A stretch of DNA of 64,000 nt, from contig NZ_JACJOD010000013.1 of assembly GCF_014695385.1 (NCBI RefSeq), positions 124,001 through 188,000 of the forward strand, given 5' to 3'. Origin of the DNA: Trichocoleus sp. FACHB-46 (GTDB taxonomy: Bacteria; Cyanobacteriota; Cyanobacteriia; FACHB-46). The translations under genes and the position numbers were made by a program. Positions within the stretch are counted from its first letter, which is position 1. The number at the start of each line of letters is the position of its first letter. The notes beneath the pieces are model-generated. The model ran no database searches and had not been told where the DNA came from. It saw nothing but the letters and a program-made list of their open reading frames with translations. This document shows positions 57,536 through 58,983 of this stretch, in pieces.

Positions 57536-57719
57536 GAAAGGAGTTTAGAAGAGGAGCGATTGCTTTCTCCTCACCAATCTTCTCCAGAATTCCTCCAAGT
57601 GGGGGGTTGACGATGCTGGTTTTTCTCTGTTAGCGTCGTTGCATAAAGCTTGACAACTCGCAAAAGATTTTTTTGCAAATGCTATCTCTTCGCAGCAGCT
57701 ACTTTTATTTTTGGTATAT

Positions 57720-57803
57720 GGAGGTTCACTTGGAGTGAATCCAGCTTCGGCTGAATCTCCAGGTGGACCGCAGAAAACAGGCTCTGCGGTCTTTTGCTTT
57801 TTT
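57720..57803 (+). promoter_or_regulatory. Structured RNA element ending in a terminator (riboswitch-like), upstream of the DAHP synthase leader
   Basis: GGAG (57720-57723) and CTCC (57757-57760) close a junction holding two hairpins: GGTTCACT / AGTGAATCC (57723-57742, one bulge) and AGC-TTCG-GCT (57743-57752). A terminator follows: GACCGCAGA (57766-57774) / TCTGCGGTC (57783-57791), then TTTTGCTTTTTT. GGTTCAC (57723-57729) can instead pair with GTGGACC (57763-57769), which would break both the first hairpin and the terminator. Such mutually exclusive pairing is typical of riboswitches and attenuators. It could also be a stand-alone small RNA. Other bases between 57536 and 57719 hold nothing recognisable. 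No known riboswitch class matched from memory. Confidence 0.55.
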
Positions 57804-57852
57804 AAGGATAGATTTCACTCACACAAAACCAAGACAGGACTGACGACTCGTG

Positions 57853-58011
57853 ATGACTCCCCGCACCAAAGCAATTTCTCAGATGGCCGCAGCTAGCCTG
57901 TGTGCCCTTAACTTTGGTGATTGCCTAAAGACGCAGTGTTCCTACCTGCGTCTTTGTTTTTGGGGAAGCTGGTTTTATAGCTTTTACTTTTGGACCAGGA
58001 GTTCCGGGTAA
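57853..58011 (+). CDS. Candidate leader peptide rich in Trp, Phe and Tyr codons
   Basis: ATG 57853 (GTG 57850 just before; ATG 57883 also possible) opens a 52-codon frame ending at TAA 58009-58011. Residues 29-45 read YLRLCFWGSWFYSFYFW: ten of seventeen are aromatic (three Trp, four Phe, three Tyr). The stop codon overlaps the first arm of the antiterminator described at 57999-58067. Directly downstream is the gene for DAHP synthase, the first step of aromatic amino acid synthesis. I infer that ribosome stalling at these codons reports aromatic aminoacyl-tRNA supply. The SD is weak (GGA some 14 bases upstream), so translation is unproven. Confidence 0.6.
   Translation: MTPRTKAISQMAAASLCALNFGDCLKTQCSYLRLCFWGSWFYSFYFWTRSSG
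57927..57960 (+). terminator. Terminator-like hairpin inside the leader reading frame
   Basis: A perfect 10-bp stem AAAGACGCAG (57927-57936) / CTGCGTCTTT (57946-57955) with a 9-base loop is followed by GTTTTT. It lies inside the putative leader peptide frame. A translating ribosome would melt it, and an untranslated leader might terminate here. Confidence 0.65.
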
Positions 58012-58067
58012 AGTCGCCATGCTGCTCACTGCACGACCCGGAACTCTCACAAAGTTCCGGGTTTTTT
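57999..58067 (+). promoter_or_regulatory. Transcription attenuator (competing antiterminator and terminator) of the DAHP synthase gene
   Basis: Three arms are seen. A is GAGTTCCGGGT (57999-58009), B is ACCCGGAACTC (58036-58046) and C is GTTCCGGGT (58054-58062), followed by T residues to 58067. A:B is a perfect 11-bp antiterminator. B:C is a perfect 9-bp stem with T-run, an intrinsic terminator. They exclude each other because B is shared. The leader peptide stop codon is at the end of arm A, so a ribosome finishing the peptide would cover A and let B:C form. A ribosome stalled at upstream aromatic codons would leave A free, and readthrough follows. DAHP synthase starts 37 bases after the T-run. 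Confidence 0.8.
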
Positions 58068-58104: not shown

Positions 58105-58983
58105 ATGTTAAACGCCAAACTCGCTAGCAAAGCCCACGCCAACCACAAAAGCGTGATTCAACTGTCTGATCACGTGACCGTTGGCGGTAAAGATCTGCTG
58201 ATTGTCGGTGGCCCTTGCACTGTAGAAAACTTAGCCCAAATGGAAGCTGTGGCTAGCCGCTTACTCACAGCCCCGATCCAAGCCTTGCGGGGTGGAGTTT
58301 ACAAGCCTCGTACCTCTCCCTACGCTTTCCAAGGCATGGGTTTGGAGGGCTTGGAGATTTTAGCCACGGTGCGGCAGCGCTACCACTTGCCTGTAGTGAC
58401 TGAAGTGATGGCGATTTCTCAGATTGAGGAAATTGCTGCTCAGGCTGATATGTTGCAGATTGGTAGCCGCAACATGCAGAACTATGACTTGCTCAAAGCA
58501 CTAGGCCAAGCAGGAAAACCGATTTTGCTGAAGCGGGGTCTCTCCGCCACCATTGAAGAATTTGTTTTGGCAGCGGAATACATCCTGGCTCACGGCAACC
58601 CTAATGTAGTGCTGTGTGAGCGGGGAATTCGTAGTTTCGACACCTACACGCGCAACGTCCTCGACTTGGGTGCGGTTGCTGCCCTAAGGCAAATCACCCA
58701 TCTGCCGATCATTGTTGATCCGAGCCATGCCGCTGGGAAGCGCGAACTAGTAGCCGATCTAGCGAGAGCCGCGATCGCCTGTGGTGCTGATGGCCTGATC
58801 ATTGAGTGTCATCCGGAACCAGAGCAATCAGTCTCGGATGCTCGCCAAGCCCTCTCTTTAGAAGAGATGGCGGAACTAGTCGCTAGCTTGAAGCCGATTG
58901 CGGTTGCGGTTGGGCGAGGCATTGCAGAAATGAATACCCGTCCTCTAGTTCCAGTTTTGGCGGGAATGGTGGGCGTCAAGTAA
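58105..58983 (+). CDS. aroF: 3-deoxy-7-phosphoheptulonate (DAHP) synthase, type I-beta
   Basis: 292 residues from ATG 58105, with GGAG at 8 bases; the frame is open 13 codons upstream but that part overlaps the terminator. Motifs: LIVGGPCTVENLAQM, LRGGVYKPRTSPYAFQG, LQIGSRNMQNYDLLKALG, KRGLSATIEEF, and DPSHAAGKRELV. It lacks an ACT or chorismate mutase domain and is the KDO8P-synthase-like I-beta type. It joins phosphoenolpyruvate and erythrose-4-phosphate, the first shikimate step leading to Phe, Tyr and Trp. Expression is likely controlled by the attenuator just upstream. Confidence 0.95.
   Translation: MLNAKLASKAHANHKSVIQLSDHVTVGGKDLLIVGGPCTVENLAQMEAVASRLLTAPIQALRGGVYKPRTSPYAFQGMGLEGLEILATVRQRYHLPVVTEVMAISQIEEIAAQADMLQIGSRNMQNYDLLKALGQAGKPILLKRGLSATIEEFVLAAEYILAHGNPNVVLCERGIRSFDTYTRNVLDLGAVAALRQITHLPIIVDPSHAAGKRELVADLARAAIACGADGLIIECHPEPEQSVSDARQALSLEEMAELVASLKPIAVAVGRGIAEMNTRPLVPVLAGMVGVK

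Follow-up and report, generated by a model that had tools for sequence, protein, structure and literature searches.

Two Predicted Aromatic Leader-Peptide Attenuators in Series Upstream of a Cyanobacterial DAHP Synthase Gene

The DAHP Synthase Gene and Its Upstream Region

The window, i.e., the whole stretch of 64,000 nucleotides from Trichocoleus sp. FACHB-46 that was analysed, contains on its forward strand a DAHP synthase gene at 58105–58983 (292 aa, DAHP_synth_1, PF00793, E = 5e-75), whose product catalyses the opening step in the synthesis of aromatic amino acids. In the domain search, the N-terminal ferredoxin-like domain PF18152 was absent from this protein while PF00793 was present, and the match to NCBIfam PRK08673 starts at profile position 69. 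The ferredoxin-like domain PF18152 mediates feedback inhibition in DAHP synthases of this kind. The second DAHP synthase (paralog) of the same genome has PF18152, and a check of its upstream region found neither a leader peptide nor a terminator of the kind described below, which suggests a division of labour between a DAHP synthase that carries the regulatory domain and has no leader and one that lacks the domain and has two leaders.

The region upstream of the gene at 58105 is more stably folded than all but one of 200 shuffles (z = −3.4), and the terminator scan reported two terminators in it, one at 57765–57792 and one at site 2, compared with 0.9 expected. Judged from its sequence, this region is made up of a predicted promoter followed by two serial leader-peptide attenuators, both complete, here called site 1 and site 2, the latter being nearest the gene. 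The predicted promoter (57607–57636, + strand) consists of a −35 element TTGACG at 57607–57612, an 18-nt spacer and an extended −10 element TGTTAGCGT, with TG at 57628–57629 and the hexamer at 57631–57636. Its pattern is conserved: TTGAC-N(17–20)-TANNNT, a looser form in which the TG is not demanded, precedes leader 1 at 92 of 98 loci, compared with 1.8% of dinucleotide shuffles, and the tighter form TTGAC-N17/18-TGNTANNNT is found there in most loci. In the loci of relatives, the stops of leader 1 and leader 2 lie at a median distance of 149 nt.

An initial annotation of the region had proposed a single ribosome-mediated attenuator immediately before the gene; this proposal was supported at site 2 and was incomplete, as a second complete attenuator at 57679–57802 (site 1) had been missed. 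Site 1 begins with leader peptide 1, MLSLRSSYFYFWYMEVHLE followed by a stop codon (57679–57738, + strand), which has six aromatic codons in a row (Y F Y F W Y) and is kept in 98 loci. Measured from the nearest ATG, leader 1 is usually 18 codons long in these loci, its form in relatives is approximately S-Y-F-Y-F-W-F-x-x-V-H-R/L-E before the stop, and its stop is TGA in 96 of the 98, while the stops of leader 2 are mixed. Arm A of site 1, GGTTCACTTGGAG (57723–57735, +), occupies the end of leader 1 immediately 5′ of the stop codon and pairs with arm B, CTCCAGGTGGACC (57757–57769, +), which is identified by covariation and folding; the terminator (57765–57802, +), identified by the terminator scan and covariation, consists of the hairpin GGACCGCAGA/TCTGCGGTCT and a T-rich tail, so that antiterminator and terminator together span 57723–57802. 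In addition, a candidate protector hairpin at 57725–57739 (+), which includes the UGA stop, could be formed by TTCAC at 57725–57729 and GTGAA at 57735–57739. Its cells are paired in 96.4% of cases and nearly invariant, hence they do not covary, and GTGAA is kept in both loci whose leader 1 stop is TAG; these observations are suggestive of a hairpin that may shut arm A once the ribosome is released.

At site 2, leader peptide 2 (+ strand) is the 52-codon frame that the initial annotation had pointed out, running from the ATG at 57853 to the TAA at 58009–58011, and a GTG at 57850 is also in frame with it. Its core, CFWGSWFYSFYFWTRSSG before the stop, is conserved in 95 loci as W-F-Y-G-F-Y-F-W-P/T-R-x-x-S-G followed by a stop. 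The last 17 codons, FWGSWFYSFYFWTRSSG, contain nine Phe/Tyr/Trp codons and not ten as first counted, since ten is reached only over the last 23. The length of 52 codons is likewise peculiar to the genus of the window, as the N-terminal extension occurs only in this genus (L001–L003) and in most relatives the nearest in-frame ATG gives a leader 2 of about 20 codons; leader 2 of the window's genus is without this nearby ATG, which counts against the switch reading.

Arm A of site 2, GAGTTCCGGGT (57999–58009, +), covaries with arm B, ACCCGGAACTC (58036–58046, +), which covariation assigns to both the antiterminator and the terminator. The two arms are perfectly complementary over 11 bp, in agreement with the antiterminator first described, and the stop codon, which had been placed on arm A, contributes its first base as the last base of the arm, with its other two bases outside. 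The terminator ACCCGGAACT/AGTTCCGGGT (58036–58062, with arm C at 58053–58062, +) and its T-run together occupy 58036–58067 (+); it was recovered by the terminator scan, is supported by covariation, and ends 37 bases before the DAHP synthase ATG at 58105, as had been noted. For leader 2, CTGG/CCAG was also considered as a 1:2 hairpin of the classical type, and its pairing is hardly better than that of shuffles.

Two side observations concern leader 2. Within its frame, at 57927–57961 (+), a strong hairpin AAAGACGCAG/CTGCGTCTTT with the T-run GTTTTT resembles a third terminator inside translated sequence; it is confined to the window's genus (L001–L003) and might terminate transcription if leader 2 is not translated. 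In two related Calothrix loci (L096 and L101), the stop of leader 2 near arm A has been lost and the frame continues through the terminator.

Conservation of the Aromatic Codons and of the Alternative Hairpins

The mean aromatic fractions in the leader frames are 0.407 and 0.427, compared with 0.12–0.25 in the other frames and 0.15 in shuffles, these values being partly a selection effect because leaders were chosen by aromatic content; the covariance-model searches used sequence and structure and were not confined to aromatic frames. Trp, Phe and Tyr are all present in 55 of 59 non-redundant leaders 2 and 47 of 50 leaders 1. At positions 5′ of arm A that are aromatic in 84–100% of sequences, Phe and Tyr exchange freely, and TTT/TTC and TAT/TAC are also variable; Trp predominates at one position of leader 1 and two positions of leader 2. 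The composition of the leaders thus supports, at the level of sequence, the earlier suggestion that all three aromatic amino acids are sensed.

An alignment of upstream regions from related cyanobacteria had been proposed as a check on arms A, B and C, and covariation was found at site 2 and also at site 1, in alignments of 50 non-redundant site 1 sequences and 53 site 2 sequences compared with 500 shuffles. The structures were taken from one member per alignment, so the paired percentages given here are biased towards them, and the covariation measures less so. At site 1, the 11 aligned pairs of A:B are 94.9% paired, with 6 pairs changed on both sides, and their covariation lies above all 500 shuffles; taken together with the inner terminator stem (5 pairs), 94.6% of cells are paired and 56 are doubly changed, compared with 16.6 in shuffles. 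The site 1 terminator alone has 96.4% of its cells paired and 24 doubly changed, compared with 4.6 in shuffles; 7 of its 9 pairs are changed on both sides, with 0/500 shuffles as high, and B:C exceeds 500/500 shuffles on every measure except pair types (16/500).

Similarly, A:B of site 2 has 86.4% of cells paired and 38 doubly changed, compared with 14.9 in shuffles, and lies above all 500 shuffles for paired cells, doubly changed cells and score; in these 53 sequences, its count of doubly changed pairs (4) and its pair types were not above shuffles. For B:C of site 2, 89.6% of cells are paired and 48 doubly changed, compared with 10.7 in shuffles, and 8 of 11 pairs are changed on both sides, with 0/500 shuffles as high on all measures. 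Shifting the pairing partners abolishes the covariation signal at sites 1 and 2. The antiterminator and terminator are mutually exclusive, arm B being shared or overlapping, and both helices covary at both sites. Homologous loci were found to do the opposite of keeping the terminator while losing arm A or the aromatic codons: in dozens of divergent loci these codons are kept together with arms A, B and C, and the arms covary, which supports ribosome-mediated attenuation.

Distribution Among Cyanobacterial Genomes

In a survey of 291 cyanobacterial genomes with covariance models of both sites and a DAHP synthase cut-off bit score of at least 328, DAHP synthase of this type was found in 107 genomes, site 1 in 106, site 2 in 102 and both in 101. 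Each site normally has one confident place per genome, where sites 1 and 2 adjoin, and site 1 is spread over 17 families. Site 2 is missing from five genomes, all of one family, in which L021–L023 keep only site 1, and one genome (G229) is without site 1 and keeps a single leader, that of site 2; two gates are therefore not strictly needed. Four genomes (G127, G108, G260 and G115) have the element with no listed gene: the element of G127 is at a contig end, and the matches of G108 and G260 are near a contig start. At the G115 locus (L178), site 1 stands directly before a truncated DAHP synthase remnant, that is, a decayed locus. A weak site 1 match in G434, a genome of another class, was judged to be due to chance, as no DAHP synthase follows it.

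Both leaders are present in five loci labelled Melainabacteria or Obscuribacterales, and the DAHP synthases of these loci cluster together (99/88) within the cyanobacterial sequences, which suggests that the gene and its control region were transferred together. In our reading of the sequences, a chorismate mutase-like frame comes next in at least three of these five loci, and the double attenuator may there control a longer operon. The Obscuribacterales/Melainabacteria loci concerned are L094, L099, L108 and L109, and the chorismate mutase-like gene is perhaps of PheA type. A separate case is L182 (G022:C15:366300-368300), where one aromatic leader, MKNSQFWYSFTFRSATGVRHRSG, and a terminator stand before a different DAHP synthase that has an N-terminal domain; no convincing arm A and no clear three-arm switch were found around this leader, which is possibly an independent attenuator.

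Proposed Mechanism and Alternative Explanations

The anatomy of the two elements, their conservation and covariation, their association with the gene and their spacing can be read directly from the genomes. Transcription, translation, stalling and regulation are what we infer, and ribosome-mediated attenuation, acting twice and sensing all three aromatic tRNAs, is very probably the explanation. A single transcript would start about 35 nt upstream of leader 1, at a position predicted near 57643, and RNA polymerase would have to clear two serial intrinsic terminators before reaching the DAHP synthase gene. At both sites, a short leader containing a stretch of Phe, Tyr and Trp codons would be translated close behind the polymerase. 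When charged aromatic tRNAs are ample, the ribosome would reach the stop codon and cover arm A, B:C would form and transcription would terminate; when any aromatic tRNA is scarce, the ribosome would stall, arm A would be left free, and A:B would form first and allow read-through. Two gates in series would act multiplicatively, which would make repression tight and the response to a general lack of aromatics steep, and the target of the double gate would be the isoenzyme without the allosteric domain.

This scheme was examined in a folding scan in which a mask of assumed footprint covered the RNA as far as 12 nt beyond the first base of the A-site codon, and the part transcribed before arm C was folded. 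At site 1, the probability of A:B was 0.99–1.00 for a stall at Y, F, Y and F, 0.81 at W and 0.60 at the last Y; beyond the aromatic codons it was 0.25 at the next Met and then 0. At site 2, it stayed at 0.97 through the last Y, dropped to 0.86 for a stall at F and to 0.56 for the final W, and was 0 one codon later. The switch point thus falls at the last aromatic codons of both leaders, and in this model arm A would pair only with a ribosome positioned on or close to the aromatic codons. The antiterminator is the more stable of the two hairpins in 50/50 sequences of site 1 and 44/53 of site 2; when arm C is included, equilibrium folding often favours the terminator even if arm A is free, so the switch must be kinetic. 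Attenuators generally act kinetically.

Other explanations assign a different role to the leaders or to one of the sites. Arrest of the nascent peptide in the exit tunnel, perhaps with a free aromatic amino acid as co-effector (TnaC-like) in place of tRNA shortage, would agree with the conservation of non-aromatic residues in leader 2, namely the Gly/Ser in the middle and Pro/Thr-Arg after the last Trp; however, most positions accept more than one aromatic residue, a freedom that a specific arrest sequence would seldom leave, and base pairing of arm A accounts for the Ser-Gly and Val-His ends, so that arrest is considered quite improbable. The loss of site 2 in one family (L021–L023) and of site 1 in one genome (G229) could point to a single working attenuator, with the other element a constitutive terminator or an evolutionary remnant, but both elements occur in 101 of the 107 genomes and covariation is found at each, and this explanation is judged very improbable.

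It could also be supposed that a ligand riboswitch or T-box-like element runs the terminators and that T-rich RNA yields the aromatic codons incidentally, as the upstream region is strongly structured and some riboswitches have a tandem architecture. Against this, the aromatic codons are concentrated in one frame, no conserved aptamer-like core was seen beyond the arms, and in Rfam searches of the window and four relatives, run with both gathering and permissive thresholds, no match exceeded the threshold of its family. A T-box riboswitch in particular was rejected: there was no Rfam T-box match, and the core AGGGTGGNACCGCG was not above chance, with one two-mismatch occurrence elsewhere in the window compared with 1.05 expected. 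Control by either kind of element is extremely improbable.

Within ribosome-mediated attenuation, a more specific version is favoured only slightly. According to it, the two elements would act as an AND gate in series, each sensing all three tRNAs, with read-through multiplying; the gate would give a steep response to general aromatic starvation and replace the allosteric domain, and the whole would be one cassette that was passed into Obscuribacterales.

The conserved double attenuator would imply that ribosomes closely follow RNA polymerase in cyanobacteria, at least at the start of the DAHP synthase mRNA. It could serve as a simple reporter for transcription–translation coupling in cyanobacteria, including its proposed dependence on the clock (PMC13378304). 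When cyanobacterial aromatic products are engineered, both terminators are possible bottlenecks at the entrance of the pathway.

Comparison with Known Attenuation Systems

Attenuation by leader peptides is a classical mode of control for aromatic genes. The E. coli systems trpL-trpEDCBA, pheL-pheA and pheST likewise combine a leader that carries codons for what the pathway makes, an antiterminator and a terminator that exclude each other, and intrinsic termination; these E. coli attenuators are single and respond to one amino acid each. For the 1:2 pause/protector hairpin of E. coli, no counterpart supported by covariation was found at site 1 or site 2. The ilvGMEDA and thr leaders of E. coli bring about multivalent control by a single peptide whose codons call for several amino acids; the peptides described here would be multivalent in the same way, and the E. 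coli systems differ by their branched-chain or Thr/Ile codons and by a single attenuator.

A 2016 survey stated that reliable data on attenuation were missing for cyanobacteria (PMC4833913). In agreement with the initial annotation, our search of the open-access literature found no cyanobacterial leader-peptide attenuator, whereas one is known for DAHP synthase outside this phylum: Corynebacterium glutamicum aroR-aroF is described as a ribosome-mediated attenuator of DAHP synthase with aromatic codons, Phe-Tyr-Phe, in its leader (Neshat et al. 2014; PMC11802643, PMC4046766). The principle of attenuation is therefore not new for DAHP synthase, and the actinobacterial system has one described attenuator with a reported response to Phe and not to Tyr; unlike it, the cyanobacterial leaders are two in series and carry runs of Phe, Tyr and Trp. 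Tandem leader ORFs have been reported for Salmonella mgtCBR, where two short ORFs of one leader mRNA are each linked to an attenuator and respond to different signals (ATP and proline), an arrangement that its authors called a singular example (PMC3641672). Unlike in mgtCBR, both cyanobacterial leaders use the same codon class and each has its own covarying terminator, and this tandem three-amino-acid arrangement, together with its occurrence in cyanobacteria, looks new.
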